Below are positions 1,490 to 28,067 of a stretch of DNA of 31,121 nucleotides, piece by piece. The stretch is taken from the IMG/VR virus record IMGVR_UViG_3300030117_000527, positions 1-31,121 of that record. One strand, 5' to 3'. This stretch comes from a virus. A program made the position numbers and the translations under genes. Position 1 is the first letter of the stretch. Every line of letters begins with the position of its first letter. The notes beneath the pieces are model-generated. The model was not told where the DNA came from and did no database searches. It saw only the letters and a program-made list of their open reading frames with translations.

Positions 1490-1503
1490 TTTATAAACTA
1501 ATA

Positions 1504-1965
1504 TTAGAAAGGCGGTACAGCTTCTTTAGGTGGATTCATATCTGAATCAGCCTCTGGTAAATATAATCTGATTTTAGTCTTCTTAGTATTCACCACACCG
1601 TTATCACCTTCAAACTGATCATCAATTTGTTCAGTTTTAAGTATTAGTTTTTTACCCACAAAATCACCATGATTCTCTGGATACTTTTTAAAGCCAACAG
1701 CTTTAGTAAGCCTGGTAAATATCTCCGTGCTTATACGCTTGTTTTTCTCATCTGTACTCCATAAGTTGTACCATTCATTATGATCTTTGTATTTACCACC
1801 ATCAATTTGGTATGTTACTTTTAAAGTCCAGTTACCAGCCTTAGATTTATGTTTATCCGTGGCAATAATTGTCGCATTGTGTTCACCATCTGGTGCTAAA
1901 GGTAAGCCACCAGATGACATTTCCTCTAAGTTATCAAAAAATTCTACATCACCAAAATCAGACAT
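1504..1965 (-). CDS. DUF669 putative ssDNA-binding protein
   Basis: A 153-residue protein of the phage DUF669 type: N-terminal FFDNLEEM, a PDGEHNATIIATDKHKSKAGN stretch, then LKVTYQIDGGKYKDHNEWYNLW and a KAVGFKKYPEN segment. DUF669 proteins sit beside phage recombination genes and are thought to act as OB-fold-like ssDNA-binding proteins. The C-terminus is acidic then ends EAVPPF, resembling the acidic, Phe-terminated tip by which bacterial SSB recruits partners. It starts 8 bases inside the end of the Sak4-like gene, so the two are co-translated, and a terminator follows. The family is fairly confident; DNA binding is inferred. Confidence 0.8.
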   Translation of the reverse strand: MSDFGDVEFFDNLEEMSSGGLPLAPDGEHNATIIATDKHKSKAGNWTLKVTYQIDGGKYKDHNEWYNLWSTDEKNKRISTEIFTRLTKAVGFKKYPENHGDFVGKKLILKTEQIDDQFEGDNGVVNTKKTKIRLYLPEADSDMNPPKEAVPPF

Positions 1966-2680
1966 TTTCTCCTCCCATATTGTCGTTAGTTAATGAAAAC
2001 CCTAACTTTTCAATTAGAGCAGTTATATCAGGTTTTTCAAAGTTTTCTAGTTTACCACTACGATCCTTTGCTTTATAACCTTGTCCATAGACGGTTTGCA
2101 ACCATCTGTTTTGGATATTCTTGCCGTCTTCATCTTGATCTTCAATGATGCGTAAAGCAAGAACCTCATCAAAAAAATATGTAATTGATTCGCCTAACTT
2201 AGTACCAACCATTTTTGGTGCGTGTCTAAGTACGCCATCATCATTTACCACATCTTCTTTACATAAGAACAAAACGTGCATATTTAGATCTCTAAAAGCA
2301 CGCATTAAATTTGTTACAGATTCTTGTACATTACCATATGCCATACGTGGATCTTTGCTACGAGATTTCTCCCATGTTAATAAGATCTCGCTTATTTCAG
2401 ATACTGAATCTAAGCACACTGTGTCATATTGTAATTTACCAGACTTCAAAGCATCATGAAGTTCCATAACTTCTGCTGCTTCTTTTACTTCAATAGCCTC
2501 TACATTGCTTGCATCTTTAATAGATAACAATCCAGCTTCAGCACTTATAACAAGTACCTTGCCTGGACAAGTTTTGGCTAATGTTGTTTTACCCGCTCCA
2601 GCCATTCCATACACCAAGATTTTTGCACCTTGATCCTGTACTAACTTTTGCGGAGATACTATTCTACTTGATAATTCCAT
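1958..2680 (-). CDS. Sak4-like P-loop ATPase (AAA_24), recombination
   Basis: A 240-residue RecA-fold ATPase. Walker A is GMAGAGKTT at residues 25-33 (Lys31, Thr32); a Walker B-like strand YDTVCLDSV ends at Asp91; a further strand VLFLCKEDV near 136-144 fits the sensor region. Length and motif spacing match the phage AAA_24/Sak4 group, regarded as short RecA/Rad51-like recombination mediators that pair with an SSB-like protein. Here the partner is the overlapping DUF669 gene. The start has AAAGGAG about ten bases upstream, and a good promoter (TTCACA-18-TATAAT) lies 36-65 bases upstream of the ATG. A generic phage nucleotide-binding protein is the alternative name. Confidence 0.82.
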   Translation of the reverse strand: MELSSRIVSPQKLVQDQGAKILVYGMAGAGKTTLAKTCPGKVLVISAEAGLLSIKDASNVEAIEVKEAAEVMELHDALKSGKLQYDTVCLDSVSEISEILLTWEKSRSKDPRMAYGNVQESVTNLMRAFRDLNMHVLFLCKEDVVNDDGVLRHAPKMVGTKLGESITYFFDEVLALRIIEDQDEDGKNIQNRWLQTVYGQGYKAKDRSGKLENFEKPDITALIEKLGFSLTNDNMGGENV

Positions 2681-2709
2681 TCTCTATCTCCTTTAAATAA
2701 AAATTAACT

Positions 2710-2738
2710 TGCATATTATATACTACTTATCTACAATA
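2710..2738 (+). promoter_or_regulatory. Sigma-70-like promoter for regulator and primase genes
   Basis: TTGCAT (2710-2715) and TACAAT (2733-2738) with a 17-base spacer point toward the HTH gene at 2778. The predicted start of transcription would be near 2745, leaving a leader of about 30 bases with AGGAG before the ATG. It lies in the only sizeable non-coding gap of the left third and overlaps an opposing promoter. Confidence 0.55.
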
Positions 2739-2745
2739 TGTGAAT
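2716..2745 (-). promoter_or_regulatory. Sigma-70-like promoter for the Sak4/DUF669 operon
   Basis: On the minus strand TTCACA (forward 2740-2745) and a perfect TATAAT (forward 2716-2721) are 18 bases apart and point toward the gene starting at 2680. The -10 lies within the spacer of the opposing promoter, so polymerases at the two promoters would exclude each other. Confidence 0.6.
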
Positions 2746-2754
2746 ATTTTTCAA
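2742..2754. promoter_or_regulatory. Candidate operator dyad
   Basis: An imperfect 13-base palindrome, TGAATATTTTTCA, with five of six base pairs symmetrical. It overlaps the -35 of the minus-strand promoter and sits just after the -10 of the plus-strand promoter, where a repressor could close both. The adjacent HTH protein is the obvious candidate ligand, but no binding evidence exists and such dyads arise easily in AT-rich DNA. Confidence 0.3.
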
Positions 2755-2777
2755 ATAAAAGTTACGAGGAGAAAAAC

Positions 2778-3122
2778 ATGGAAGATACCAACAAAGAAAA
2801 TTTAGTATGGCAAGCTAACTATTATCATAGAATGAAGTCGCTATCATCGCAAAAATTAAAAGAATTTGAAACACTTGGAGTAAAACCTAATCACACTGAT
2901 AGAGTAGTAAAAAGATACACTTTAAAAGAATACATTGAATTTCTAGGACAGAAAAAAGCTGCAGAGGATTTTGGTTGTTCGGAGGCTTCATGTAAGTCAT
3001 GGAGATATGGTTATAGGCAGCCAACTATAAATCAAGCCAAACAAATTATAAAAGCTACTGATGGCAGATTAGATTTTGAATGCATCTTTGGATCAGTAAA
3101 TGATATAGCACAAGAAGCTTAG
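2778..3122 (+). CDS. HTH (Cro/CI-like) DNA-binding protein
   Basis: A 114-residue protein. The chosen start is the ATG at 2778, preceded by GAGGAGAAAAAC; the frame extends upstream to 2709 but that stretch contains the promoter elements. Residues about 49-95 fit a helix-turn-helix of Cro/YdaS type: EYIEFLGQKKAAEDFGCS, then ASCKSWRYGYRQPTINQAKQI, where the second helix follows the family pattern SxxSxxxWxxGxxxP. The N-terminal 45 residues are charged and helical. It is placed exactly beside a pair of divergent overlapping promoters and one base before the primase start, so it probably autoregulates and controls the Sak4 operon. Whether it represses, activates or both cannot be told. Confidence 0.72.
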   Translation: MEDTNKENLVWQANYYHRMKSLSSQKLKEFETLGVKPNHTDRVVKRYTLKEYIEFLGQKKAAEDFGCSEASCKSWRYGYRQPTINQAKQIIKATDGRLDFECIFGSVNDIAQEA

Positions 3123-3123
3123 T

Positions 3124-5247
3124 GTGTTTCAGCTTAACATTACTGAGGATGATACATCCTTAGAGCAAGCTCTTGCCTATTATGACGATGGTTATAATGT
3201 AGTTCCTTTACAAAGATCTAACAAAAAACCACCATCTTTTCTAGGTAGTTGGGAACAATACAAAGAAGTAAGGCCTGATAGAACCCTTGTAGAGTCATGG
3301 TTTAAGGGCAGAGATAACTTACAAGTTGCACTTGTTTGCGGTAAATTTGTTGTTGTCGATGCAGATTCTCCAGAGGCTATGGACTGGGTAGAAAAAAATA
3401 TGCCTGCTTGTCCATTTAAAGTTATAACTGGTAAAGGTATGCATTACTATTATAACAATCCACAAAACTATACTACTTTTGCAACCAGAAGAACTGCTGA
3501 AACTCCCATAGAGAGATTAATAGATATTAGAGGTATGGGTGGATTAATCATTGCACCATATAACAGGCACGCCAACGGACAAGTTTATAAACCAATTACT
3601 TTTCCAGATTGGAAAATACATGACCATAATGATTTACCAGACTTTACAGAAGTTGAGTTTCAAAAAATTACGGGGGTTCCAAAAACAGATACAGGAGTAC
3701 AAACTGCACCATTCTCACTTGATGGTGTTATGGAAGGATCTAGGAATGATGGAGCTGCTAGAATAGCTGGATACTTAATATCAAAGAACGTAAATATACA
3801 ATTTGTAAAAATATTTTTGCAGAACTGGAATAAAAATAACAATCCACCATTGCCACAAACAGAGATAGATAGCGTTGTAGAGAGCGTCAAAAACACTCAC
3901 GATAGAAAGAACAGGATAGCACCATTGTTCATTCAAGCTTCAGAAAGCATACAGAAACCAAAAGACTTATTCAACCCACCAGGACTTTTAAAAGATATGT
4001 TTAAGTTTTGTGAAGAGATAGCACAAGTGCCACAGCCAGAGTTATCACTTATAGGTGCATTAGCTTTAGCTAGTGTTACTTGTGGACGTATTTATAGAAC
4101 TAATATGAATAACTTTTCTTCTATGTATTTCATGGGTATTGCTAAGTCTGGTCAGGGTAAGGAAAACATAAAAACATTTGTCGAGTCGGTACTCAATGCT
4201 AGTGATCACGAAAAGCTTGTAGTAGGAGATGGTTATACATCAAGTGGTGCCGTGCATTCTGTTCTTAAGATGAGGCCAACACAAATAACTATAATGGACG
4301 AGTTTGGTAAAAGATTAGAGGCCATAGGTGCGTCAACCAATACAAATAGAGAGGATGGAATACAAACACTTATGGAGGCATGGGGTCGTTGTCATGGTAC
4401 TTTAAGACCAGATAACTATTCTTTAATGAATGTACAAGAACAATATAAAGAAATGATGATGAGCCGTGTTACGCACAAGCCAGCCATAACACTCGTTGGT
4501 TTATCAGTACCAAAGAATTTTTATAAAGCATTAAATGGTGGCAGAATTGCGGACGGGTTCTTAAACCGTTTTGTGGTTGTTGAATCTACAGAACCAAGAA
4601 GAGTAGGTGAGCTTAAAAAATTTAAATCGCCACCAACATCTATAGTTAATTGGGTGAACTATGTTAGAAGATCTAGGGGAGGAATGACTGATTTATCTCG
4701 TGATAATGCAGAATTAGATTTAGATCAAATAATTTTAAATTTTGATAGAGAATCAGAAGAAATACTACAAGACTTTGCACGAGAAATAGTTAAACGACAA
4801 GATATACTAGAAAAAGATAACCTAGAGCCACTTCTAAGCCGTTCTAAGGAGAAAGCTATGCGTTTGTCTTTATTATGTACTCTTGCATCAAATGCAGATG
4901 CTACAGCCATTACAGGAGATGTAACACGTTGGGCTGTAGATTTTATTAGATACTATGACTTATTATTCATAGAAGCCTGTAGAGATAAGGTAGCCAGTAG
5001 TGCAACAGAGTCAAAGATTAAACAAGTATTATCATTCATTAGATCCAGGAATGGAGAAGGTATATCTAAACGTGAAGTTGATAGACACGAACTATTTAGG
5101 AGTATGAAGTCTTATGAAGTAAAAGAGATTATTGAAAGGCTTAAAAATGCAGGGGAGATACAAGAGGTTGAGATTAAAGTGGGTGGTAAAGGCAGACCAG
5201 CTAAAAGATTTGTAGCTGTAGATCCTACTTTTTTTGAGGATAGTTAA
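3124..5247 (+). CDS. Primase-polymerase / DUF3987 helicase fusion
   Basis: A 707-residue replication protein. Residues about 15-175 are a bifunctional prim-pol domain (AEP type): GYNVVPL at 23-29, catalytic acids in VVVDAD (Asp79, Asp81), GKGMHYYY at 103-110 with His107, and DIRGMGGLIIAPYN at 134-147. Residues about 200-260 look like the PriCT_1 linker. From about 280 a DUF3987-type helicase follows, with a Walker A-like GIAKSGQGKE (338-347, Lys346) and Walker B ITIMDEF (Asp392, Glu393). The last 65 residues look like a winged helix. It likely primes and unwinds phage DNA. It starts with GTG one base after the HTH stop with a poor ribosome site, suggesting coupled translation. Its stop overlaps the opposing late-operon stop. 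Confidence 0.88.
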   Translation: MFQLNITEDDTSLEQALAYYDDGYNVVPLQRSNKKPPSFLGSWEQYKEVRPDRTLVESWFKGRDNLQVALVCGKFVVVDADSPEAMDWVEKNMPACPFKVITGKGMHYYYNNPQNYTTFATRRTAETPIERLIDIRGMGGLIIAPYNRHANGQVYKPITFPDWKIHDHNDLPDFTEVEFQKITGVPKTDTGVQTAPFSLDGVMEGSRNDGAARIAGYLISKNVNIQFVKIFLQNWNKNNNPPLPQTEIDSVVESVKNTHDRKNRIAPLFIQASESIQKPKDLFNPPGLLKDMFKFCEEIAQVPQPELSLIGALALASVTCGRIYRTNMNNFSSMYFMGIAKSGQGKENIKTFVESVLNASDHEKLVVGDGYTSSGAVHSVLKMRPTQITIMDEFGKRLEAIGASTNTNREDGIQTLMEAWGRCHGTLRPDNYSLMNVQEQYKEMMMSRVTHKPAITLVGLSVPKNFYKALNGGRIADGFLNRFVVVESTEPRRVGELKKFKSPPTSIVNWVNYVRRSRGGMTDLSRDNAELDLDQIILNFDRESEEILQDFAREIVKRQDILEKDNLEPLLSRSKEKAMRLSLLCTLASNADATAITGDVTRWAVDFIRYYDLLFIEACRDKVASSATESKIKQVLSFIRSRNGEGISKREVDRHELFRSMKSYEVKEIIERLKNAGEIQEVEIKVGGKGRPAKRFVAVDPTFFEDS

Positions 5248-10630: not shown

Positions 10631-12777
10631 TAACTGCCCCCTTGTTTAGGAGCAACAGCACCATAAGCACTGAATGCAGCTCCTAATCCTGCAGCGGCTG
10701 GATCTGTGGGCATACCATATTGTGAGTCAATTCTTGAACTTGCAGCTTGATACCCAGGTAACATAGAACCAATCTGACCTAATACGCCTAATGGACGCAT
10801 TTGTTGTCCCATCTGTTGCTCATATATTCTACCTAATCCAGTTTCAGCAATGCCTCTGCCAGTTGTACCATATCCTGATAGTTCTCCTCTTTGACCTCTT
10901 CTTAGTTCTTCTTGTGTTCTACCCAAGCCAGCCATTTGGCTACCATAACCTGCTAGCTGTCTTCCTAAGTCAGATGCAGCACTTCCTCTGCCTACACCAA
11001 TACCCATAAGTCCTTGAGCTCCAGTTCTTTTAGCTGCTTGCTGTCTTGCAAACTCACTTAATCCTGTGCTTTGTGCTTGTCTAAATCCTGTTTGTCTTAT
11101 ACCGCTTAACGCTTTTGCTAAGCCTTCTCCAAGGTCTTGTCTACGTTCTTCTGCACCAAGTCTTGCCCTACTGCCACCAAATGCACCAGAACTAATCTCA
11201 CGAGCTCTAGCAGCTATATCTTGTTTATCTCCTGCTTTCATTACATCTTCAATAGTTTGTTGTACGACTGCATCCTCATAAGGGTTGTAGAACTGTTGAG
11301 TCATACTAGGGTCATAAGCACCCATAGTATCTTTATATATTTCTTCAGCTTGTGTGTAATAAGGATCTTGGAGTCCTTCTGCTCTTCTTGATTGTTCTAT
11401 AGCTTGATTAACTAAATTTCTGTTTTGTTGTAAAAATGGTTCAAAACCACCTAATCCTGCTACAGCCTGTTGTCTAGCTAATAATTCTAGTGGAGTGAGA
11501 CCTGCAGTTTGTTGTAATGGTACATCACTACCAATTAGGTTAGCACCTGCTTGTTGTAGTTGATTATAAAAACCTGGTGAATCTGCTGTACCAAAATATA
11601 AAGACCTTAACAATGGGTCTGTTTGAACTTCAGAGGCAGATTGTTGTAACAATACAGGATCTATAGGTGCGACAGGCATATTTACAGACATATTAGGATC
11701 TGTGGGAGTTGTAACAGGCTCTGTGCTTATAGTTGGATCCGTAACAGGCGGTTGTATTTCTTGCCCAATTAAACTTGGTGATGTCATACCATCTCCTACA
11801 GAAGGTTGTGTTCTATCTCCATAAGTTCCACTTGTAGGGTCTATTTTTCTTTGTTTTAAACCATAATTACCTATTTGACCTGCACCAGTACCTCTTCTAA
11901 ATTCAGGTCCACCACCTGCACCTAAAACAGGTGTATAAGGTTGACCTGTTTCTGGATTTATTGCCTGTCTTGTGTCTGTAAACCCACCACCAGGTCCACC
12001 TATAGACATGAAATCATCACGTTTAGGTGGTAAAGGCATTTTTTGAAATGGGTCTCGACCTTCTGGTGTTATTCCAGAACCTAATGTTACTTGTGCTAAT
12101 GGTGGGCCTTCGGGTGCTGTTATTTTAGGCATAGAGAGGTCTGCTAAAGAAGGCATCGGAACAGGTCCACTTACGCTTTGATTAGCTCGCTCTATTTCAC
12201 TTGTAGTAAATATAGGTTTAGGACCACCCCCAACATTAGGTCCTGTTGCAGGACCTACACCACTTAAACCAGAGCTGGTGCCAGGGGGTAATTGAGTTCC
12301 CTTTAGTTGTATGGGTTCTTGTGGCACAGCACTTATGACTCCAGGGGCATCTGTTGTTATAAGTCTGCCTGTATTTGTTGGTGGCGATACTGGGCCTGTC
12401 GGTAAATTAGCTATAGGTAAAATACCACTTCCTAATGGCCCACCACCTGTCACTGGAATACCACCTGTTTGTGGTGGTTGTGGTTGTTGTAAAACTGGTT
12501 GTAATGGTTGATTTATGCCACCTATGCCACCTATTGATGGTGGTCTTTGTGGGATTATACGAGGGTCAACAGGAGGTAAAGCTGGACCACCTACTACTGG
12601 TGGTCGTGGAGTTGGAGGTAAGGGTGGACCAAAAGGACTTGGTTGTTCAAATATATTTCTTTCTCCTGGTATATCTAATCCAGGTTCTCTTAACATTGGC
12701 CTTACACCCATAGCAGGCATTGGCCTACCAATTGGAGACATAATTTGATCTTTAAATGCTTGTGATAAAAAGCCCAT
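10630..12777 (-). CDS. Putative virion protein with Pro/Gly-rich N-terminus
   Basis: A 715-residue protein in two halves. Residues 1 to about 370 are extremely rich in Pro and Gly with repeated PPP, GGG and TxPP patches, and are probably disordered. From about 440 a helical domain contains NPYEDAVVQQTIEDV, then AREISSGAFGGSRARLGAEE and LSGIRQTGFRQAQ, a pattern (NPY, AGAFGGSR, GYxxAQ) that recurs in marine phage structural genes. The C-terminal 130 residues are Gly/Gln-rich. The AGAFGGSR domain probably forms a long helical bundle in the virion interior or tail. It sits between two other putative internal proteins with one-base overlaps. It lacks enzyme motifs; function is unproven. Confidence 0.62.
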   Translation of the reverse strand: MGFLSQAFKDQIMSPIGRPMPAMGVRPMLREPGLDIPGERNIFEQPSPFGPPLPPTPRPPVVGGPALPPVDPRIIPQRPPSIGGIGGINQPLQPVLQQPQPPQTGGIPVTGGGPLGSGILPIANLPTGPVSPPTNTGRLITTDAPGVISAVPQEPIQLKGTQLPPGTSSGLSGVGPATGPNVGGGPKPIFTTSEIERANQSVSGPVPMPSLADLSMPKITAPEGPPLAQVTLGSGITPEGRDPFQKMPLPPKRDDFMSIGGPGGGFTDTRQAINPETGQPYTPVLGAGGGPEFRRGTGAGQIGNYGLKQRKIDPTSGTYGDRTQPSVGDGMTSPSLIGQEIQPPVTDPTISTEPVTTPTDPNMSVNMPVAPIDPVLLQQSASEVQTDPLLRSLYFGTADSPGFYNQLQQAGANLIGSDVPLQQTAGLTPLELLARQQAVAGLGGFEPFLQQNRNLVNQAIEQSRRAEGLQDPYYTQAEEIYKDTMGAYDPSMTQQFYNPYEDAVVQQTIEDVMKAGDKQDIAARAREISSGAFGGSRARLGAEERRQDLGEGLAKALSGIRQTGFRQAQSTGLSEFARQQAAKRTGAQGLMGIGVGRGSAASDLGRQLAGYGSQMAGLGRTQEELRRGQRGELSGYGTTGRGIAETGLGRIYEQQMGQQMRPLGVLGQIGSMLPGYQAASSRIDSQYGMPTDPAAAGLGAAFSAYGAVAPKQGGS

Positions 12778-13853
12778 TATACTTGTCCTATTTTATTAAA
12801 TTGCTCAAAAGTTTTCATAAGCTTGTCCATGTTTTCAGCACCCTTTTGTCTATTTGGTGAACCATTTGGTATAAGTTCTATGCCTGTTTCTGTTTTTGTT
12901 ACTTTAAATCCACCTAAACCATTGTTAGCTGCTGATGTCATTACAAACTCACCATCACTCAACATAGCTGGTATATCATCACTTGTGCCTGTTCCTGGCC
13001 CCACTGAAGGACCACCCATACGCATATCTAATTCTTGTAATCCACCATCTTTAGCTCCTCTTATGCCCATATCAAAACCTTGAAATGTTTGTTGAGGCAT
13101 CAAGTCTGGTCGTATTGATGTTCTTATATCTTGTAAACCACCTTGTTTCTTTTCATAATCAGACTTAACTGCTTTACCATAAGCACCAGCTAATAGGAGT
13201 AGTGGTAAATTCATTCCACCACCTTGTGAAGTAGATCCAGTAGCACCTGGTATTAATCCAGGAAAAGCTTTTGAAAGACTTGACTGTATGCCTGATCCTA
13301 CTGGTCCCAAGGTCGATCCAGTAGCACTGCTGAAAAAACCACCAAAAGGTTGTGTTAATCCAGTTGTGATTGTAGAACCATAGTTTCCTGGTCCTGCTGT
13401 CATACCTCCAGCAATTTGTGAAATACCAGGAATACCAGCACCCGCTACAGTTTGTGCAAAATTTGCTAATTTAGGAAATTTAGCTGCTGTAAGACCAATT
13501 TTGGATCCTAGACCACCTAATACACCGCCTAAAGCTTGACCTACTCCAGGTATAAACATAGCAACTGGTGCTACTTTTTTAACTACCTTTTTAAGTTTTT
13601 TACCTAGTTTTTTTAAGAACCCAAACTCTGCCATACCCGTTATTGGATTTATGGACATACCTTCACCAACCCTATATTCATTAGGATTAAGTCCAACCGC
13701 CATCATTTCTTGTTCTATAATTTTTTGTGTTTGTGGAGTAATAACTGGTGGGACTACCATTTCTCCTGGTGCTACGTGAGCAAGCATACTGTCCTCTCCT
13801 CTTCCTAAACCTGCTATGCCTTTACCTGAGTTGTCGATTCTATTCATGCTCAA
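12777..13853 (-). CDS. Putative virion protein with cationic amphipathic helix
   Basis: A 358-residue protein with three recognisable parts. Residues about 16-40 carry GRGEDSMLAHVAPGEMVVP; about 79-120 hold a Lys-rich amphipathic helix (LKKLGKKLKKVVKKV) running into a hydrophobic Gly-rich stretch (APVAMFIPGVGQALGGVLGG); and about 290-312 hold TSDDIPAMLSDGEFVMTSAA. The first and third are related to each other (ML...GEMV / ML...GEFV) and are common in marine phage late proteins. The cationic-then-hydrophobic centre looks membrane-active, which would suit a pore-forming ejection protein. It starts one base after the oxygenase stop. No catalytic residues are evident. Confidence 0.6.
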   Translation of the reverse strand: MSMNRIDNSGKGIAGLGRGEDSMLAHVAPGEMVVPPVITPQTQKIIEQEMMAVGLNPNEYRVGEGMSINPITGMAEFGFLKKLGKKLKKVVKKVAPVAMFIPGVGQALGGVLGGLGSKIGLTAAKFPKLANFAQTVAGAGIPGISQIAGGMTAGPGNYGSTITTGLTQPFGGFFSSATGSTLGPVGSGIQSSLSKAFPGLIPGATGSTSQGGGMNLPLLLLAGAYGKAVKSDYEKKQGGLQDIRTSIRPDLMPQQTFQGFDMGIRGAKDGGLQELDMRMGGPSVGPGTGTSDDIPAMLSDGEFVMTSAANNGLGGFKVTKTETGIELIPNGSPNRQKGAENMDKLMKTFEQFNKIGQV

Positions 13854-16752: not shown

Positions 16753-17196
16753 TTATACCTCATGCCATTCTTTGCCTTCAAATAGCAAAGCTTCTGCTTC
16801 TCTTCTTCTTACCAAGCCTTGTTTCACTTGCCCACCAGCTTTATTCCATCTTTTAATTTGATTGGGTACATCATTCCAATCTTTATTGTTAAGTCTTTGC
16901 AATAATGTGCTTGAAGATAAATTATTTGGCCCAAGGTTATAAACCCAAGATACTAAAGCATCGAACTCATTTTGTTTTAGATCAGAAGTAACCATATCAT
17001 TAACATATCCTTCGTATTCAGACATTTCTTCTACAAGTAAACTATCTGCTTCTTCTTGTGTAATTGTATCGCCTTCTTTTACACCTTTAGTTGAACCCCA
17101 TCCATATGTCCAAACTCCTGCTGCACATTTGTAAGCTTCTAGTTCACAACCTTCAAATTTTTTAATAAGAGATAAACCTTCTTGTGATATGTTCAT
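16753..17196 (-). CDS. GH24 lysozyme (endolysin) with E-C-T catalytic motif
   Basis: A 147-residue T4-type lysozyme that cleaves peptidoglycan glycan strands at lysis. The catalytic motif E-x8-C-x5-T is exact: Glu15 (KKFEG), Cys24 (YKCAAG) and Thr30 (VWTYGWGST). Many relatives have Asp in place of Cys24; P1 Lyz has Cys. A second Cys17 sits two residues after Glu15, as in P1 Lyz. There is no N-terminal signal or SAR segment, so it should wait in the cytoplasm for the holin. I chose the ATG at 17196 because AAAGGAG lies 8 bases upstream, inside the last codons of the holin gene. The frame extends 19 residues further, but that part overlaps the holin and looks non-native. Confidence 0.9.
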   Translation of the reverse strand: MNISQEGLSLIKKFEGCELEAYKCAAGVWTYGWGSTKGVKEGDTITQEEADSLLVEEMSEYEGYVNDMVTSDLKQNEFDALVSWVYNLGPNNLSSSTLLQRLNNKDWNDVPNQIKRWNKAGGQVKQGLVRRREAEALLFEGKEWHEV

Positions 17197-17197
17197 G

Positions 17198-17677
17198 TTA
17201 CTCTCCTTTGTCGCTGGTGTGAGATGCTCCGAAATAAAACGAAATAATTGCACTTGCTAACCCTCCAAGATAACCAAGCACTAAATTTATAAGTGCTTCA
17301 GAGTTTTGTTCAGGTGGTTGTAGTGTTACTAAAAATATATACCCTAAAAATCCACCTATGGTGAATAAACCTATAATACGAGCAGTCCAATCTTTGCTAA
17401 ATATACCTCTAGCGTTTTGTTTGTCAGCTACTTCTAGCTTAAATACATCTACATCAAGTTCTTTCATTTGTACTTCAAACTCTTGTTCAGCTTTTTTAAG
17501 TTCCATCATTTGTTCTGGAGTAGCGTTTTGTATCGCTTGTTGTACGGATTTTTGATCGTTAGATACACCTAACACTTCTGCTATTTTACCCATAGCCATT
17601 CCGCCTAATGGCCCACTAATTGCTGTGCCTAGTGTTGGTGCAACTGCACCTACTATATTTTTTAATAATCCTTTCAT
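17198..17677 (-). CDS. Holin of the GTA-type 3TM family
   Basis: A 159-residue protein matching the holin family first described for gene-transfer agent release. Residues about 8-37 are a Gly/Ala-rich hydrophobic segment, 45-90 a charged helical stretch, and two clear transmembrane helices follow at about 98-118 (IIGLFTIGGFLGYIFLVTL) and 127-151 (INLVLGYLGGLASAIISFYF), with the conserved KDWTAR just before the first. It would permeabilise the inner membrane to release the lysozyme, whose ribosome binding site is embedded in its 3' end. Its start overlaps the preceding small gene by 4 bases. Confidence 0.82.
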   Translation of the reverse strand: MKGLLKNIVGAVAPTLGTAISGPLGGMAMGKIAEVLGVSNDQKSVQQAIQNATPEQMMELKKAEQEFEVQMKELDVDVFKLEVADKQNARGIFSKDWTARIIGLFTIGGFLGYIFLVTLQPPEQNSEALINLVLGYLGGLASAIISFYFGASHTSDKGE

Positions 17678-17889
17678 ATTAATATGCTCGTTAAAACAGC
17701 TATACCAATTGCACCAAGAAACCCAAACACACCAAAGGTTGCGGCTTTCATAGTTGAATTAATATAGGTGATTTCTTGTTTTATATCAGAAAACTCATTG
17801 AATGCAGTTTTCCAACGCTCGTGTGATATTGTTTCTAACTTTGTAAGCCTTTCTGCAACATCGTTTACTGTCATTTTTTTATTAACCAT
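17674..17889 (-). CDS. XhlA-like small membrane protein, lysis accessory
   Basis: A 71-residue protein: residues about 8-45 form a charged amphipathic or coiled-coil helix (DVAERLTKLETISHERW), followed by one C-terminal transmembrane helix (about 48-70). This layout resembles XhlA-type lysis accessory proteins and other small holin partners. It overlaps the adenylate cyclase stop by 8 bases upstream and the holin start by 4 bases downstream, placing it at the head of the lysis cassette. No good ribosome site precedes either of the two possible Met starts, so it probably depends on coupled translation from the cyclase. Family assignment is tentative. Confidence 0.55.
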   Translation of the reverse strand: MVNKKMTVNDVAERLTKLETISHERWKTAFNEFSDIKQEITYINSTMKAATFGVFGFLGAIGIAVLTSILI

Positions 17890-19642
17890 ATTGTATAGTG
17901 TATATTTTAATTGGTTTTTCTTTACCTTTTACAAAAATACTATCAAGCTCTTTTAACATAATTTGATCGCTAAAGCTACTTGCACTGATAGTATCATAAC
18001 CTATAACAATATCTTCTCCAACATCCTTAGTTGAACTCTCTAGTCTTGCTGCAAGGTTTACTGCATCTCCAATAGCCGTATAATCAAATCTAGTTTCACT
18101 GCCCATATTCCCAATAACTGCATAACCGCTATTCACACCTATGCCTATTTCTACATCTAAATTAGCCATTTTTATTTTGTCTTGAATTTCCATAGCACAC
18201 AAAACTGCAGAATTTTCATGTCCTGGTGTATCCATGGGAGCGTTAAAAATAGCCATCATAGCATCACCTATATACTTATCTACCATACCATCATATCTTT
18301 TAACGGTGTCAGCTTGTATTGTAAGAGCTTTGTTCATAATTTCAGTAACTTCTTCTGGCTCTAGTCGTTCAGATAAAGCAGTAAATCCCCTTACATCTGT
18401 GAATAAAAATGTGCAGTATCTACGTTCACCACCTAATACTAAAGAACTAGGATCATCTTGTAATTTTTTAACTTGGCGTGGATCAAGGTAATGTTCAAAC
18501 TGTTTTTTAATCTGTTGACGTAATTTATATTGTTGTCTAAACCTTAAATAGAAAGCTATAGATCCTGAAATAAACTCTGATATAAGTGTCCAAGATACAT
18601 CTACTAACAAACCTTTGCTTATAAAGTAATATCCTAAACTACCAGTAGTAACCATTAACATGGTTGCAACAGTGATACCCCAAGTTATACCTAAATAATG
18701 AAGTGCAAACCAAACTAAACTAACAAATATAATAAACATCATTAGTTCAGCAGCCAATGACCAATCAGGAATGTATGGACTATCTTGTATTAATATCGAT
18801 TCAGCGAGTGCTGCTTGTATTTTATGTGGCTCTAGCAAGCCTACAGGTGTTGCTACTTGCGGCATTACTCCGTTTGCAGTTACACCTATAAATACAAACT
18901 TACCATTTACTTCCATTTCTTGTAAGTCGGTTTGTGGTGTATCTATCCAACTAATCCATTTACGGCCAAAGCTGTCTGTTTTAACTGGTGGTATTCCTCT
19001 TATTGATATTTCTGATATACCATTATCATTAGTTTTTATAATATAAGTTTTTACATTAAATAAAGCTTTATATATTTGTGTGCCAAAACTAGGTATCCAT
19101 TCATTTTCAGGGGTTTTTACTAAAAGAGGTATTCTTCTAACAAGTTGATCTACATCTGTGGGAGCAATCGCTAAACCTTGAAGTGTGTGATTGGATAAGA
19201 GAAGTAGGTTCTGCTTTACTCCCGTACTTATTATACCACCATTATCATCTCCAAGTACAACGGTTCCAGGAGATGCAGGGTAATTACCTTTCCCATCTTC
19301 AAACATAGCTATAACAGATGGTGCATACCTCAAAGATCTAGCGAAGTCTTCATCACCACCCATTCTGTCTGCTTGTGGAAAAGAGATAACCCAACCAACA
19401 CCTACTGCACCTTTACCTAATATTTGCAATTGTATTTCAGCTAATCTTTGTCTGGGTAAGGGCCAACCACCTTCACGCTCTACATCTTCTTCGGTTATAT
19501 TAAGTATTGTAAAGTTACCTGATTCTTCTGGTGTTTGTATAAAAGCATCAAAAGTTTTTAGTTTTAATATTTCTGTAGGCGTGCTTTGAAATAATAATGG
19601 TAAAGATAGCATTATAAGCACAGGTAATAATAGTCGTTTCAT
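17882..19642 (-). CDS. CHASE2-transmembrane class III adenylate cyclase
   Basis: A 586-residue receptor-type cyclase. A hydrophobic N-terminal segment (4-19) is followed by an extracytoplasmic CHASE2 sensor domain (about 28-290), three transmembrane helices (about 298-316, 320-340, 345-366) and a cytoplasmic class III cyclase domain (about 405-586). Catalytic residues are intact: metal-binding Asp416 (LFTDVRGFT) and Asp460 (DKYIGDAMM), adenine-selecting Lys456 and Thr522 (DYTAIGD), Asn529 and Arg533 (VNLAARLES). Lys/Thr points to ATP, hence cAMP. It follows the FecR gene with no gap and overlaps the lysis cassette by 8 bases. Stimulus and purpose in infection are unknown. Such a full receptor cyclase is very unusual for a phage. 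Confidence 0.93.
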   Translation of the reverse strand: MKRLLLPVLIMLSLPLLFQSTPTEILKLKTFDAFIQTPEESGNFTILNITEEDVEREGGWPLPRQRLAEIQLQILGKGAVGVGWVISFPQADRMGGDEDFARSLRYAPSVIAMFEDGKGNYPASPGTVVLGDDNGGIISTGVKQNLLLLSNHTLQGLAIAPTDVDQLVRRIPLLVKTPENEWIPSFGTQIYKALFNVKTYIIKTNDNGISEISIRGIPPVKTDSFGRKWISWIDTPQTDLQEMEVNGKFVFIGVTANGVMPQVATPVGLLEPHKIQAALAESILIQDSPYIPDWSLAAELMMFIIFVSLVWFALHYLGITWGITVATMLMVTTGSLGYYFISKGLLVDVSWTLISEFISGSIAFYLRFRQQYKLRQQIKKQFEHYLDPRQVKKLQDDPSSLVLGGERRYCTFLFTDVRGFTALSERLEPEEVTEIMNKALTIQADTVKRYDGMVDKYIGDAMMAIFNAPMDTPGHENSAVLCAMEIQDKIKMANLDVEIGIGVNSGYAVIGNMGSETRFDYTAIGDAVNLAARLESSTKDVGEDIVIGYDTISASSFSDQIMLKELDSIFVKGKEKPIKIYTIQYG

Positions 19643-20761
19643 TTAATCACTTTGAGTGATAGTAATAATGCTATCACTTCCCCCGTTAATTTTTATTGTA
19701 TTAGAAATACCATCTTGTATCAAAATAACTGTATATGCAGTACCGCCATCTAAATCTAACCTAACACTTTCACTTACCTCTCTACGCAAACTTACTACGT
19801 TTCCTGTAATTAAAGCTGTTATTTGTGTATCAGGATCTTTGCCAAGCATAGTTCCAGTTATTTGCGTGCTTGTAGCTTGTGCTAATACATCTTCTTCTTC
19901 AGCAATAGCTAAAGCATCTAAAACATTAAGCAGGTCTTCAAGGTAATTTACATCAAGATAATTTATATCTAATTCTGTAAACTCAAGACTGTCTTCTTTT
20001 AAATAGTCCTCTGCAAGATAATCTATATCAAGATCATTAAAATCTAACACGCTATCTGCTTTTGTAGTGGTGTTTTCTTCTTCTACTAGCACTTCTTCTT
20101 TAGGTGGTGTTACTATCAACATATTATCTATAACATCTAGTGTTAGATCTAAAATTACTGGTTTTGTTGGAGCTGACTCGAATACGCTTACTGTAGTCGC
20201 CTCGTATGGTTTATTAAGTAAAACAGTACCCATAGCAGTAACTACCTCTATTTCGCCACTAGAGAGCCCTAGAGCGTCTGGTAGCAATATTATAAGGCTA
20301 CGCCCTAGTTCATCAACTGTAGCAGTAAAATCAGTCCCACGTATTGCTATATTAGCTGTTGGTGTTTTAAGAGTTATGTTCTGTTTATCTATACGGTTAA
20401 GATTGCCTGTAATAAACCTAGCTGTACCAAGACCAAAGGTAAGAGCCATTTTTGCTTTACTTGGGTCTGGATCGTATATGTACTCGTCAATAAGTAGCTG
20501 ACTATGTTCAGTTAATTTAACTGTTGAGTCATCAAGAAATGTAATAGCCATGCGGCCATCTTTAGTTATAGCCTCATCATTACTTTGAATTGCAAACTTT
20601 AGATTTGCATCATAAGGTTTATCTCTTAAGATTTGGGCTGAACCATTTAGTTCAGAAATATCTCCTATATCAGCAGCTTGTGCTTGTACCTTGGTCGTTT
20701 TGAACGACACAAACAGTAGAAGCAGCAGTGCCAGAAATTGAAATGATCTTAAGCCAGTCAT
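19643..20761 (-). CDS. Secreted FecR-domain protein with acidic repeats
   Basis: A 372-residue exported protein. Residues 1-29 are a signal peptide (basic start, LALLLLLFVSF core, AQA before the cut). Residues about 35-195 contain a FecR-type domain, best seen at MALTFGLGTARFITG (105-119) and TPTANIAIRGTDFTATV (133-149). Residues about 236-290 are an acidic repeat built on LDINYL-like units (DIDYL, DINYL, DVNYL). The tail (about 350-370, SNTIKINGGSDSIITITQ) has curlin-like beta-strand spacing. In bacteria FecR domains often sit next to CHASE2 cyclases, as here with zero gap, suggesting it is the periplasmic partner of that sensor. The first 92 bases overlap the curlin-like gene in another frame. 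Confidence 0.85.
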   Translation of the reverse strand: MTGLRSFQFLALLLLLFVSFKTTKVQAQAADIGDISELNGSAQILRDKPYDANLKFAIQSNDEAITKDGRMAITFLDDSTVKLTEHSQLLIDEYIYDPDPSKAKMALTFGLGTARFITGNLNRIDKQNITLKTPTANIAIRGTDFTATVDELGRSLIILLPDALGLSSGEIEVVTAMGTVLLNKPYEATTVSVFESAPTKPVILDLTLDVIDNMLIVTPPKEEVLVEEENTTTKADSVLDFNDLDIDYLAEDYLKEDSLEFTELDINYLDVNYLEDLLNVLDALAIAEEEDVLAQATSTQITGTMLGKDPDTQITALITGNVVSLRREVSESVRLDLDGGTAYTVILIQDGISNTIKINGGSDSIITITQSD

Positions 20762-21404
20762 TATCTTGAGTGCTTAGTTGTTGGATATTAAAGGTTCTTG
20801 AGCCTCCTGTGTGGTCAAGATAGAAATATCCACCTGCACTAGCTGTTACTCCAGTCCCAGTATATGTAACTGTATTATCACTTCCATCTATATCCATAAA
20901 ATTGGTTGCTCCATCTATGTTTATATTTGAAGTAATAGTGTTGTTAGATCCTTGAATAATCCAATCTAAATCAAGTTGTGAAGCTAAAGCTGAAGTACCT
21001 TGATTTAAAGTAAAGGTGTTGCCGCTCCCTGTAACATCTACGTTTTGATTAGAACCATCTGAACTGTAAGTATCTGTAGGATCAACTTGTATGGTAAATG
21101 AATTAGTGCCGCCATCAAACTCATAAAAACCTGTAAAGTTATCAGCAAATATATCACCTAAAAATTTATTGGTTGCACCAATCATATTAATATCAAGTGT
21201 CATGCTGTTACCATCTAAATCAAAGGGAGTTAAATTGCCTGCAGAGCTATTTAACCCACCTATGATATTAGAAATACCTAGTTGTTCTAGGTCTATATTT
21301 GCTCCAGTACCAGATTGTTCTACATATATTTCATTATCAGCCGCGTATGTCGTCAACGCACTCATCATCACAATCAGGCTTATCAATTTTAATTTGTTCA
21401 TCAT
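20670..21404 (-). CDS. Secreted curlin-like beta-repeat protein
   Basis: A 244-residue protein with a signal peptide (KLKLISLIVMMSALTTYA, cut before ADNEIYV). The mature chain is acidic, rich in Gly, Ser, Asn, Thr and Asp, and has curlin-like repeats: EIYVEQSGTGANIDLEQLGISN at the mature N-terminus (written here as the pattern Q-x-G-x4-N-x5-Q-x-G-x2-N), then TGSGNTFTLNQG, IQGSNNTITSNI and IDGSDNTVTYTG. Two Cys lie in the last 13 residues. It directly follows csgG, so it is the likely cargo of that channel. It is the only gene of this block with a strong ribosome site (GAAGGAG), consistent with high output of a fibre subunit. True amyloid formation is unproven; a beta-helical adhesin is the alternative. 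Confidence 0.65.
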   Translation of the reverse strand: MMNKLKLISLIVMMSALTTYAADNEIYVEQSGTGANIDLEQLGISNIIGGLNSSAGNLTPFDLDGNSMTLDINMIGATNKFLGDIFADNFTGFYEFDGGTNSFTIQVDPTDTYSSDGSNQNVDVTGSGNTFTLNQGTSALASQLDLDWIIQGSNNTITSNINIDGATNFMDIDGSDNTVTYTGTGVTASAGGYFYLDHTGGSRTFNIQQLSTQDNDWLKIISISGTAASTVCVVQNDQGTSTSC

Positions 21405-22242
21405 TTAATTCTACTCCTTCGTTTTTGTTTTGTAAAACCCAAAATCCTTTTTCATATCCTGTTTCTACTATTTCTAATATACCACCCTCTATAGCTTTCA
21501 TTAAAGCTATGGTAGATGACTCGTTTCTTGCGTTACCCATTTCTACTTCTACTAGCTCGGTACCTGCCTCAATAAACCTAAATATATCCTCAGATTTTCC
21601 GTAGCTAAATATGGTTTTTTGGCTTAACACTTCTAGCAGGACTTCGCCTGTTGCAACAGAAACCATACGCAAACTTACAGTTATGTTGTCTTCTCGATAC
21701 ATCACACTTTTACCTATACCTAAATACCTAGCACCAGAACCCCCACTTTCTAAATTAGATTCATAAGAAATTACGGCACCTTCTATCAAAATACCAGCAA
21801 ATAAAAGTGGTCTAAGAGCTTTCTTTTTTTCATCTTCACTAGCAGTTTGTTCTCTAGCAGATCTTATAAGTTGTCGTTCTTTGGTTAAGTTATCTAAACC
21901 AACTCTTTCTACGACTCTAAAAAATTGACCATTACCTGCGTGTTTTAAAGCTCTTATTAATAATGCATTTGGCTGTTGGGTTATAGCTGTGCTAAACAGT
22001 GCAAACTCGCTGTTGCTTTTTCTTTGTCCTGTCTGATCTGTAAAGGCGGTTGGATATACAGCTACAACAGGACTTACCTGAGGTATAGGTACGTTTTTAA
22101 GTTCTTTAGATTGTAAATCTTGAATACTTACAACATTATGAGCTGAAAATCTATGTTCGTAAGTATCTTCTAACTGATCAAATGTAGAACAACTAGAAAG
22201 TAAAAGTACCAATAGGAATAACGATAGAAGTGATTGTACCAT
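21337..22242 (-). CDS. csgG: CsgG-family curli secretion channel lipoprotein
   Basis: A 301-residue, full-length CsgG homologue. Residues 1-17 form a lipoprotein signal ending LLSSC (lipidated Cys18, Ser at +2, compatible with outer-membrane sorting). Family blocks run in order: TDQTGQRK (68-75), LFSTAITQQPNALLIRALK (82-100), FFRVVERVGLDNLTKERQLIR (written as the 107-127 region), ILIEGAVISYESN (151-163), SGGSGARYLGIG (166-177), RMVSVATGEVL and SQKTIFSY...FRFIE, the last two forming beta-barrel hairpins in E. coli. In E. coli nine subunits form the outer-membrane channel for curlin. Constriction residues differ: Y51 and N55 of E. coli align with Ser78 and Leu82, while F56 is kept (Phe83). It overlaps both neighbours (50 and 68 bases). 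Confidence 0.93.
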   Translation of the reverse strand: MVQSLLSLFLLVLLLSSCSTFDQLEDTYEHRFSAHNVVSIQDLQSKELKNVPIPQVSPVVAVYPTAFTDQTGQRKSNSEFALFSTAITQQPNALLIRALKHAGNGQFFRVVERVGLDNLTKERQLIRSAREQTASEDEKKKALRPLLFAGILIEGAVISYESNLESGGSGARYLGIGKSVMYREDNITVSLRMVSVATGEVLLEVLSQKTIFSYGKSEDIFRFIEAGTELVEVEMGNARNESSTIALMKAIEGGILEIVETGYEKGFWVLQNKNEGVELNDEQIKIDKPDCDDECVDDIRG

Positions 22243-22693
22243 CTGACTCGGTTATTTTTAGGGTTAATGTTACACCATCACTTGTGTACTCGATAGTATT
22301 CCCCTCTAAAGTGATGACACCTTCGCTTTGCGGTGTTTCTCCGAATAAGTTATTAACTAACTGTCTTGATAGTTCTGCGTAAACTCTGGACTCAAGATTA
22401 CGCATAAACCTTGCAAGAGTAGAGTTTTCTTTTTCTCTTTTGATTTCATCTTGTAAGGCTTTAATTTCTTCTTTAAGTGTAAGTTTGCGGGTGTGTTCTT
22501 GGTTTTCTATGGTTAAGTAATGAGATGATGTTCCTACGCCATTAAAACTAGGCGACTTAAATTTATGTACTATTTGATCTGCTTTTATATTTATAGCTAT
22601 TATTCCTATAAACATAATTAAACCAAAAAACATTACACCAATTAGTATTCTAGTTTTTTCTGCTTCAGTTTCGTTAATCTTTTCTTTGGTCAT
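22193..22693 (-). CDS. csgF: CsgF-like curli assembly protein, membrane-anchored
   Basis: A 166-residue protein. Residues 1-15 are charged, 16-34 hydrophobic (ILIGVMFFGLIMFIGIIAI), then ADQIVHKFKSPSFNG (38-52) matches the CsgF segment FRNPxFGG that in E. coli plugs into the CsgG pore. A charged helix (about 71-95) is inserted, followed by LESRVYAELSRQLVNNLFG (100-118) and a beta region with EYTSDGVTLTLKITESDGT (135-153), both aligning in order with E. coli CsgF. The long n-region makes it ambiguous whether the hydrophobic part is a cleaved signal peptide or an anchor. I chose the ATG at 22693 (AAAGG nine bases upstream) over an in-frame TTG 18 bases earlier. It precedes csgG with a 50-base overlap. 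Confidence 0.8.
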   Translation of the reverse strand: MTKEKINETEAEKTRILIGVMFFGLIMFIGIIAINIKADQIVHKFKSPSFNGVGTSSHYLTIENQEHTRKLTLKEEIKALQDEIKREKENSTLARFMRNLESRVYAELSRQLVNNLFGETPQSEGVITLEGNTIEYTSDGVTLTLKITESDGTITSIVIPIGTFTF

Positions 22694-23024
22694 CTCTATT
22701 CGCCTTTGCAATTTTATTGCTATCTATAAGTTGTGGTACGCCAAGAATAGTTTTAACTAAAGTATCTTGTCTTATAATTTCGTTATCTAAACTTCGTACT
22801 CTATCTATTAATGCTACCAAAATACCATGTTGTGAATCAAGTTTTGTACCAAGTCGTTCTTCTATAGCAGCTATTTGTGCTTCTACTTTTTCATCAACAG
22901 TATCAAGTTTAGTCTCCATACCGTCAACAATACGCATAATTAGTTTGTAAATAAACCAACCAAGCCCTAATGCTGCTGCAATAGGGAATCCAACTTCTTG
23001 AATTAAAGTTACGGCTGATTCCAT
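22674..23024 (-). CDS. Small membrane protein with coiled coil (holin-like layout)
   Basis: A 116-residue protein: an N-terminal transmembrane helix (about 8-32, VGFPIAAALGLGWFIYKLIM) followed by a long coiled-coil-like region with heptad spacing (about 34-90, e.g. LDTVDEKVEAQIAAIEERL) and a polar end. This resembles BhlA/UviB-type holin-like proteins and other small phage membrane proteins, but the match is by layout only. Its start shares a base with the thermonuclease stop and its end overlaps the csgF start by 20 bases, so it is translated together with the secretion module and could be part of it or of lysis. Confidence 0.5.
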   Translation of the reverse strand: MESAVTLIQEVGFPIAAALGLGWFIYKLIMRIVDGMETKLDTVDEKVEAQIAAIEERLGTKLDSQHGILVALIDRVRSLDNEIIRQDTLVKTILGVPQLIDSNKIAKANRDDQRKD

Positions 23025-23404
23025 TAATAATCACCCCAAACTTTTTTCTTTTTGCCTCCATCGTATTCAACGGCATGACCTTCTTTAATAAGAACATCAC
23101 AAATATCTCTGCCGTCTTCTGTATAAGGTATGCCCAATATACGACCGTACTTACCTTTGCCCAACGATTTAATTTTTATATTGCCTACACACAATTCTTT
23201 TAGTCTTTCTTTTGCAGCAAGACCAAGTTTTTTTTCAGCAAGATCACGTGTTCTGCTTTCTGGTGTATCTATACCAGCAAGCCTAACACGTTGTTTGTGA
23301 AGTTTTACATCAAAACCAAGATCTAAAATACAATCAAAAGTATCGCCATCAACGATTCTATCAAGTGTAGCGTTATAAACAAACGCATCGGGTGATTTAG
23401 CCAT
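23024..23404 (-). CDS. Thermonuclease (SNase-like)
   Basis: A 126-residue staphylococcal-nuclease-like enzyme. Active-site residues are all visible: Asp19 and Asp21 in VDGDTF, Arg41 and Glu49 in RVRLAGIDTPES (with Asp46), and Arg88 in GKYGRILG. The OB-fold length is normal. It hydrolyses DNA or RNA with calcium. There is no signal peptide, so it would act in the cytoplasm or within the virion, perhaps degrading host nucleic acid. It starts at a TAATG overlap with the upstream 53-residue gene and stops on the start of the small coiled-coil membrane gene. Confidence 0.9.
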   Translation of the reverse strand: MAKSPDAFVYNATLDRIVDGDTFDCILDLGFDVKLHKQRVRLAGIDTPESRTRDLAEKKLGLAAKERLKELCVGNIKIKSLGKGKYGRILGIPYTEDGRDICDVLIKEGHAVEYDGGKKKKVWGDY

Positions 23405-26869: not shown

Positions 26870-27634
26870 CTATGCAGCAACATCATCCCAGTTAGGAGTT
26901 TGTGTATCTGATACTGTAGTATAGTTTGGAGTTTGTGATTCATCAACTGCTGAATAATTTGGGGTTTGTGACTCATCTATAAGACCCCAAACGCAAATAG
27001 TTCCTAATTCTGATGACAGACCTTGTAAAGAAACACTAACACCAACACCTAATTGCAAAGATACATCCCCTAATGCAGAGGTTGCGGCTATGCCTGTAAT
27101 AATAACTTTTTCGTTGTGATGAACTGTAATGCTACCAATAGCAGAGGTAGCACCTTGTCCTGTGACAGATACATTTGCCTCCCCGTCTACATCGACACTT
27201 ACTGCACCTAGAGTTGCAGTTGCACCTGTTGCGTTTGCAACAGCGCTACCGTTAACACCTACGCCACCTATGGCTGATGTACCTACTTGCGAACTTGGAG
27301 TTATATTGGCTTTTGCAACAACTGTAAGAGAGCCTACAGCACTTGTGGCTAATTGAGATGAAAGTGTTTGATTTGCTTTTGCTACAACTGATGCTGTGCC
27401 TAGAGCAGTTGTAGATGACTGTCCTGCAAGAGTTAAATTAGCCTCACAATCAAAAGTAGGAGTTCCTACCGCTGTGGTGCCTACTTGAGAAGATGGGGTA
27501 ACATTAGCTTTTGCTACAACAGAAACGGTGCCTAAAGCACTTGTGGCTGATTGTCCTGTAACAGAAACTGGTAAAGCTTCGCTCCAGGCACCTTCACCCC
27601 AAGTGCCTCTACCCCAACCAGTTATGTTAGCCAT
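26870..27634 (-). CDS. Repeat-containing virion protein (22-residue repeats)
   Basis: A 254-residue protein. It opens with GWGRGTWGEGAWSEALPV, a Trp-Gly opening common in marine phage tail or neck proteins. Residues 23-217 consist of about nine degenerate repeats of roughly 22 residues with the core VTGQSATSALGTVSVVAKAN; alternating small and hydrophobic residues suggest a beta-solenoid or fibre shaft. Residues 220-252 are three 11-residue repeats (DESQTPNYSAV type). It lies just upstream of the tail fibre in transcription order. It has no enzyme motif; probably a fibre, collar or adhesive structural protein. Repeat number may vary between relatives. Confidence 0.65.
   Translation of the reverse strand: MANITGWGRGTWGEGAWSEALPVSVTGQSATSALGTVSVVAKANVTPSSQVGTTAVGTPTFDCEANLTLAGQSSTTALGTASVVAKANQTLSSQLATSAVGSLTVVAKANITPSSQVGTSAIGGVGVNGSAVANATGATATLGAVSVDVDGEANVSVTGQGATSAIGSITVHHNEKVIITGIAATSALGDVSLQLGVGVSVSLQGLSSELGTICVWGLIDESQTPNYSAVDESQTPNYTTVSDTQTPNWDDVAA
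26879..26977 (-). repeat. Three tandem 33-bp coding repeats
   Basis: Three consecutive 11-residue units (DESQTPNYSAV, DESQTPNYTTV, SDTQTPNWDDV) form the C-terminus of the repeat protein. They are a different repeat class from the 22-residue units before them. The TPNY/TPNW core may be a binding tail. Confidence 0.8.
26984..27568 (-). repeat. About nine in-frame ~66-bp coding repeats
   Basis: DNA repeats inside the 254-residue protein gene, each coding for about 22 residues with the core ...SATSALG..SVVAKAN. Copies 1, 3 and 4 are the most similar; copies 5 and 6 differ in length (24 and 20 residues). The length differences keep the reading frame, as expected for repeat gain and loss under coding constraint. 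Confidence 0.75.
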
Positions 27635-27638
27635 AAGG

Positions 27639-28067
27639 CTAGGCTATTCTTATAATAGCTGTACTTGCTGCTTTAGCTGGAAAAACTATTGTAAAATCAC
27701 CTGCGGTCGATGTTTTGTCACCACCAAAATCAATTGTGGCAACTGATTTATCACCATTTGTATCATTGTAAATCATACAACCTCTGGCTGTGATTGTGGC
27801 TGTGCTGAATGTTAAATCATTAAAATCAGTAACAGCAGTTGTGCCTGTTGCTGAAGGAGTTACGTTAGTTAATGCAGCCCCGCCAGATGTATAGTTTGTA
27901 CCACTTGCTTGTCCAGTAGTTGTAAAAGCTGTAGTTGTTGCGCCTAATGTTGCTGAACTTGTGTATAAAGCTAATTTAAAACTATTACCACTTGAGTTAG
28001 TAAAATTATGCGTACCTGTAAGCAGCTCTACTTTAAAGCTGGTTGTTAATGTTGATGATATTGCCAT
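27639..28067 (-). CDS. Putative virion protein (SSTLxxSFKxELL type)
   Basis: A 142-residue beta-rich, Thr/Ser/Ala-rich protein. The opening SSTLTTSFKVELLTGTHNF followed by FKLALYTSSATLGATTTAF is a pattern I know from marine phage structural genes, where it continues with a TSGGAAL-like segment, as it does here. It lies between the 99-residue conserved gene and the repeat protein in the tail region of the late operon. It probably forms part of the tail or a decoration, but the exact role is not known. Spacing of 1 base to the preceding and 4 bases to the following gene shows it is in the operon. Confidence 0.6.
   Translation of the reverse strand: MAISSTLTTSFKVELLTGTHNFTNSSGNSFKLALYTSSATLGATTTAFTTTGQASGTNYTSGGAALTNVTPSATGTTAVTDFNDLTFSTATITARGCMIYNDTNGDKSVATIDFGGDKTSTAGDFTIVFPAKAASTAIIRIA

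Follow-up and report, generated by a model that had tools for sequence, protein, structure and literature searches.

The window, meaning the whole 31,121-nt stretch analysed here, is an IMG/VR virus record (IMGVR_UViG_3300030117_000527) from a marine phage, a 31-kb fragment without closed ends. Its minus strand carries a 586-aa open reading frame that begins with ATG and lies among tail-fibre, virion, SU10-type adaptor and lysozyme genes, in agreement with the phage context given in a preliminary description of this DNA. The product contains a CHASE2 domain (Pfam, residues 12–309, E 3.5e-28, 99.3 bits, over the cut-off), i.e., the full sensor reported there, followed by a Guanylate_cyc domain (residues 410–583, E 1.1e-20, 74.4 bits against a cut-off of 21.9). 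Because both domains exceed their Pfam cut-offs, a chance open reading frame was rejected. The CsgF, CsgG and FecR genes directly upstream (Table 1) change how this cyclase is read.

Table 1. Genes of the cyclase locus and its immediate neighbours (positions in the window).
Feature	Position	Strand	Basis
Phage lysozyme (endolysin)	16753..17253	-	Pfam Phage_lysozyme, E 3.1e-48
Holin-like protein (inferred), downstream of cyclase	17198..17677	-	Two C-terminal hydrophobic stretches; adjoins lysozyme
CHASE2 + class III adenylate cyclase (predicted), 586 aa	17882..19642	-	Pfam; intact residues; CyaB fold match
FecR-domain protein, N-terminal hydrophobic stretch (likely signal peptide)	19643..20761	-	Pfam FecR, E 2.3e-9; hydropathy
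Curlin-like repeat protein, 244 aa (CsgA/B-type, inferred)	20670..21404	-	HTVC008M CsgB-annotated protein, 29% identity
CsgG outer-membrane curli secretion pore	21337..22242	-	Pfam CsgG, E 1.3e-45
CsgF	22193..22711	-	Pfam CsgF, E 3.8e-15
116-aa protein, hydrophobic helix + likely coiled coil (by eye), cassette head	22674..23024	-	Hydropathy, 11–33

The catalytic residues D416, K456, D460, T522, N529 and R533 were all located in the protein, as the preliminary description had them. D416 and D460, which we take to be the metal-binding aspartates, and N529 and R533, presumably the transition-state residues, place it among class III nucleotide cyclases. K456 and T522 correspond to the Lys and Thr/Ser adenine pair, which we assume to be the rule for class IIIb adenylate cyclases. 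The encoded protein is very probably an active nucleotide cyclase, and cAMP is its likely product.

The AlphaFold2 model of a single chain (mean pLDDT 82.1, pTM 0.56, built on an alignment of 21 rows) begins with a helix (residues 2–17), followed by an alpha/beta domain (CHASE2), three helices (295–316, 318–342 and 350–382) and the cyclase fold. A crude hydropathy scan flagged only 4–22 and 296–314; the three transmembrane helices claimed earlier are thus reproduced by the model and not by the scan, and their count is that of the AlphaFold2 model alone. Together with the Pfam domain, the modelled membrane helices are those of a CHASE2 receptor, the CHASE2 part of which should be located in the periplasm. 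A one-chain model of this pTM does not show dimerisation. The class IIIb assignment is borne out by the predicted structure, since the cyclase part matched Pseudomonas aeruginosa CyaB (3r5g; Z 24.5, rmsd 2.2, 179 residues, 37% identity) and OaPAC (Z 24.8), with all matches listed in the fold comparison falling on the cyclase domain. CyaB is also the best solved relative by phmmer (6.7e-32) and has the same Lys/Thr substrate pair. The sensors differ: CHASE2 in the window and a membrane domain of its own in CyaB, which we take to be distinct from CHASE2.

The window contains CsgF, CsgG and curlin-like genes in this order, followed by FecR and the cyclase, i.e., the composition of the type VIII (curli; T8SS) cassette of pelagiphages. 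Assignment of the curlin-like protein depends on its similarity to the HTVC008M protein only, as Pfam and PHROG searches gave no match, and NCBIfam profiles matched the cassette below cut-off in every case. The 116-aa protein at the cassette head had no Pfam match, and no kinase domain was found in it at the Pfam threshold; it is probably the gene labelled HK, for histidine kinase, by Wittmers et al. (PMC9599517), and it is this label that is in doubt, not the membership of the gene in the cassette. This small head gene (window, 22674–23024; L002, 3845–4407; L003, 4210–4848) is double at some loci. The holin-like protein belongs to phrog_1544, a family of unknown function.

Among the matches listed, all 76 related viral loci that extend 4.5 kb or more upstream show one arrangement: 116-aa gene, CsgF, CsgG, curlin-like, FecR, cyclase. 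These loci were collected by cyclase similarity, so the count means that the cyclase is accompanied by the cassette and not the converse. The cyclase is therefore the last gene of a fixed cassette and no lone captured gene. In the window the FecR gene adjoins the cyclase start with a gap of 0; among the matches listed, 121 of 132 loci have a FecR stop lying 0, −1 or −4 nt from the cyclase start. This spacing points to translational coupling of FecR and cyclase.

Some proteins of the window matched the podoviruses HTVC023P (50 kb compared; 7 of 32 proteins) and HTVC027P (compared in part; 8 of 32) at 25–49% identity. Replication genes (exonuclease VIII-like, Sak4-like and Prim-Pol/DUF3987) lie at 120–5247; the exonuclease, Sak4-like, SSB-like and primase genes had no match in the stretches of HTVC023P (50 kb) and HTVC027P compared. 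Matched virion genes beside unmatched replication genes suggest that this phage is a mosaic or a separate podovirus lineage. GC content is 0.40–0.43 at 11001–13000 and 27001–28000 versus about 0.35 elsewhere, and these GC-rich parts hold virion-side genes without a clear family.

Wittmers et al., Zaragoza-Solas et al. and Buchholz et al. are presumed here to be the authors of PMC9599517, PMC7029224 and PMC9004378, respectively. Wittmers et al. (2022, PMC9599517), in the available text, describe a T8SS cassette that includes FecR and adenylate cyclase from both HTVC023P-type podoviruses and myoviruses; in their account it is of alphaproteobacterial origin, has been transferred across families and is expressed in metatranscriptomes. 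Podovirus copies are described there as typically nested within myovirus ones; in the present cyclase samples myovirus copies are few. Curli genes were also described in pelagimyophages (Zaragoza-Solas et al. 2020, PMC7029224) and in Melnitz (Buchholz et al. 2022, PMC9004378), as far as the available text of both papers goes, and the word “cyclase” is absent from their main text. The word “CRP” is absent from the main text of PMC9599517, which is the only paper on a phage-encoded adenylate cyclase found in the open-licence PMC literature. That curli cassettes of pelagiphages contain an adenylate cyclase and FecR is thus largely known already, and the novelty attributed to a phage adenylate cyclase does not hold in view of the available text of that paper.

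The window is another member of this cassette type, in a phage whose other genes are distantly related to HTVC023P-type phages. Like the window, the cassettes of HTVC008M, Melnitz and HTVC023P-type phages contain CsgF, CsgG, curlin-like, FecR and adenylate cyclase genes in identical order. The window cyclase is only 31–36% identical to those of HTVC008M and Melnitz and, unlike in known pelagiphage cassettes, FecR is followed in the window by the cyclase without another curlin gene in between. As far as the literature was searched, four results given below are new: the residue census, the selection estimate, the counts of host receptors and the pairing of FecR with the cyclase where curli genes are absent.

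At least hundreds of viral contigs carry a CHASE2 cyclase gene. For the residue census, 147 phage copies were aligned (144 IMG/VR loci, the window, HTVC008M and Melnitz, among the matches listed), with locus L001, a copy of the window, dropped. Eighty of these loci were chosen by CHASE2 motifs alone; the patterns of the first locus search lie within CHASE2 only, and one pattern of the second includes K456 and D460. Among the matches listed, D416, K456, D460 and R533 are present in 147 of 147 copies and N529 in 146, with Ser in Melnitz, and position 522 is occupied by Ser in 80 copies, Thr in 66 and Asp in one. The Melnitz cyclase (L003, 8917–10968), in which Ser replaces the transition-state Asn and the Thr/Ser position is occupied by Asp, also bears a C-terminal extension absent from the window copy; with the catalytic Asn replaced, activity may be compromised in one relative or more. 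Sixty pairs sampled from 799 at 86–97% identity, again among the matches listed, gave a median dN/dS of 0.103 over the full length, 0.115 in CHASE2 and 0.084 in the cyclase part. Both halves are under purifying selection; for this reason gene decay was rejected, and the earlier argument against a decaying passenger stands.

Bacterial relatives of the phage cyclase are mostly alphaproteobacterial CHASE2 cyclases of about 27–32% identity. Twenty-three phage representatives separated from 81 bacterial rows with SH-aLRT support of 98 in a first tree, which was made without three bacterial cyclases shorter than 640 aa. In a second tree, to which phage copies from SAR11-like bins were added, two long-branch bacterial rows were removed and the set was thinned to 12 phage and 40 bacterial rows; the split had support of 100. 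Phage cyclases thus form one clade separate from their bacterial kin, and a single recent capture, named in advance as one outcome that would speak against the original proposal, was rejected. The stem under the podovirus-type copies is long (1.86–1.93 changes per column).

Sinorhizobium meliloti CyaD1, CyaD2 and CyaK and proteins of Bradyrhizobium and Paracoccus combine CHASE2 with a cyclase as in the window, often with FecR adjoining. Unlike the phage copies (mostly 577–589 aa), the alphaproteobacterial proteins are mostly 727–840 aa long and end in a C-terminal tail that phage cyclases have lost. FecR was found in 29 of 73 bacterial loci with at least 600 bp upstream, directly upstream on the same strand in 14 of the 29, and was not found within the available flanking DNA of the other 44, where the profile may overlook divergent FecR. 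In the annotated plasmid loci, four of four, a FecR gene lies close to the cyclase; in one case it is on the opposite strand and separated by another gene. The pairing in bacteria is common, not obligate. No CsgG lies near the cyclase in any of 84 bacterial loci (0/84), which also sets them apart from the phage copies. FecR and CHASE2 cyclase look like a bacterial sensor pair independent of curli that was combined with curli genes in phages, and the data yield a testable hypothesis about the signal sensed by the cyclase.

The indicated host of the phage is SAR11. The pointers are the cultured phages HTVC008M (host HTCC1062, per its record) and HTVC023P/HTVC027P, and two phage contigs from SAR11-like bins, co-binning being weak host evidence for phage contigs. 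The SAR11-like family (117 genomes, including G210) was located through the SAM-V riboswitch and putatively assigned to SAR11 on the features of G210, which has two strong SAM-V matches (best 84.7 bits), a size of 1.2 Mb and 31.5% GC around the match; the SAM-V riboswitch is taken by us to be a SAR11 marker. A class III cyclase above cut-off was found in 2 of the 117 genomes, with one more match below cut-off, and a class I cyclase in none of the 117. CsgG is present in the same two genomes on the identical contigs, and both contigs (G394:C1 and G430:C11) are phage. G394:C1 holds the whole cassette with SNase and lysozyme genes, its cyclase and FecR being 61% and 73% identical to those of the window. 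SAR11-type cells carry few regulators, according to the available text of a review (PMC11102524), and no paper testing a host receptor for phage cAMP was found in the open-licence PMC literature.

The data are best explained, with a fair degree of confidence, by a membrane-bound class IIIb adenylate cyclase that closes a pelagiphage type VIII (curli) cassette, would be driven by FecR, would make cAMP and, if SAR11 is the host, would have a target other than CRP. The cyclase itself is real, conserved and mostly known; the absent cAMP receptor is the interesting part.

It had been proposed that cAMP from the phage would reprogram host cAMP–CRP control and so rewire the host transcriptome. The cyclase is catalytically intact, and CHASE2 cyclases of S. 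meliloti feed the CRP-type regulator Clr (PMC13001267, in its available text). Nevertheless, this is unlikely for a SAR11 host: the cNMP_binding domain was not found in 112 of the 117 genomes of the family, although ribosomal S7, the yardstick of completeness, was found in 96 of them. Across the whole class, 107 of 142 genomes have the domain. Five family genomes have it, and the four ORFs inspected are one regulator with a Crp-type HTH, a 112-aa lone domain, an acyltransferase fusion and an ABC exporter; in the fifth genome (G446) the match score and ORF length equal those of the acyltransferase fusion. The Crp-type regulator, and a host that is inferred rather than proven, leave some room for this proposal. 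No cNMP_binding protein was found in 24 phage records, window included (HTVC008M and Melnitz whole, the other 22 fragments or of unknown completeness). CRP is absent from the greater part of the family. Action of cAMP on something other than CRP is rather likely; P-II proteins were rejected as a general target, being present in only 18 of the 117 genomes.

In the favoured scheme, i.e., the FecR-driven cyclase closing the curli cassette, an infected cell would assemble an outer-membrane pore from CsgG and CsgF and export the curlin-like protein through it. Periplasmic FecR could then sense the state of the pore, the fibre or the envelope and drive the CHASE2 receptor, turning on conversion of ATP to cAMP at the inner membrane; if SAR11 is the host, the cAMP would bypass any CRP regulon. 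FecR and the CHASE2 receptor would represent an older bacterial sensor pair attached by the phage to curli genes. In the Fec system, FecR connects an outer-membrane barrel to inner-membrane signalling. That FecR may read the CsgG/CsgF pore or the fibre follows from analogy with NsrA, the outer-membrane barrel through which S. meliloti CHASE2 cyclases answer a protein signal (PMC13001267), and with the Burkholderia BiofilmReg operon (PMC5192318), both according to the available text. Like the window, that biofilm-linked operon holds a periplasmic FecR-domain protein and a CHASE2 receptor; its output is a histidine kinase with a response regulator, and that of the window is a cyclase. The chances of FecR being coupled to CHASE2 are about even.

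The cyclase could instead be a mere ATP drain, or a late stress device timed with lysis, the identity of its product being irrelevant. Such a role agrees with its position next to the holin-like and lysozyme genes and with a receptor that is absent from the phage records and rare in the SAR11-like family. It is improbable, since a conserved CHASE2 sensor with a FecR gene directly adjoining speaks for regulated signalling and since the HTVC008M and Melnitz cassettes have no annotated lysis gene alongside.

Production of cCMP or cUMP by a Pycsar-like cyclase, or by a phage counter to cyclic-mononucleotide defence, is suggested by PADLOC PycC models that match the catalytic domain (best 1.3e-27). 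The best match spans only the domain shared by class III enzymes, K456 with Thr/Ser at 522 and CyaB as the closest fold fit ATP, and the curli context and full CHASE2 receptor are at odds with such a function, which is very improbable; a Pycsar defence system was rejected, as none of the 24 records, window included, has a cNMP-binding effector. A functionless passenger of the curli module, kept through linkage, would suit the curli regions that lack FecR and cyclase (PMC9599517, in its available text) and is very unlikely given dN/dS of about 0.1 in both domains and an active site invariant, bar one Asn, in the 147 copies among the matches listed.

A more extended version of the favoured scheme is offered tentatively and is itself doubtful: a trans-envelope relay in which FecR would read the curli pore or fibre and the CHASE2 cyclase would pass the signal through cAMP to a new, non-CRP target in a streamlined host having lost both cAMP signalling and its receptors. 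If true, a second-messenger system would be brought by a virus into a cell having none, the target belonging to the phage or the host. SAR11-type hosts rank among the most abundant marine cells, and if phages install cAMP production in CRP-free cells, the target is something new. The cultured pair HTVC008M/HTCC1062 allows a direct search for it.

Three minor observations concern other loci. An 8.3-kb contig from a SAR11-like bin (G449:C9; L240, L246) encodes the 112-aa lone cNMP-binding protein together with a 20-bit class III cyclase match; this may be either a stray contig or a small signalling locus of native origin. In the window, SNase is encoded upstream of the cassette (23024–23404), but in G394:C1 (L250, 12830–13225) its gene lies between cyclase and lysozyme, as if the cassette moves en bloc. 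G430:C11 (L252) also carries the cassette, and its FecR, CsgG and CsgF are 53–55% identical to those of the window versus only 31% for the cyclase, which in one phage lineage either evolved fast or was swapped.
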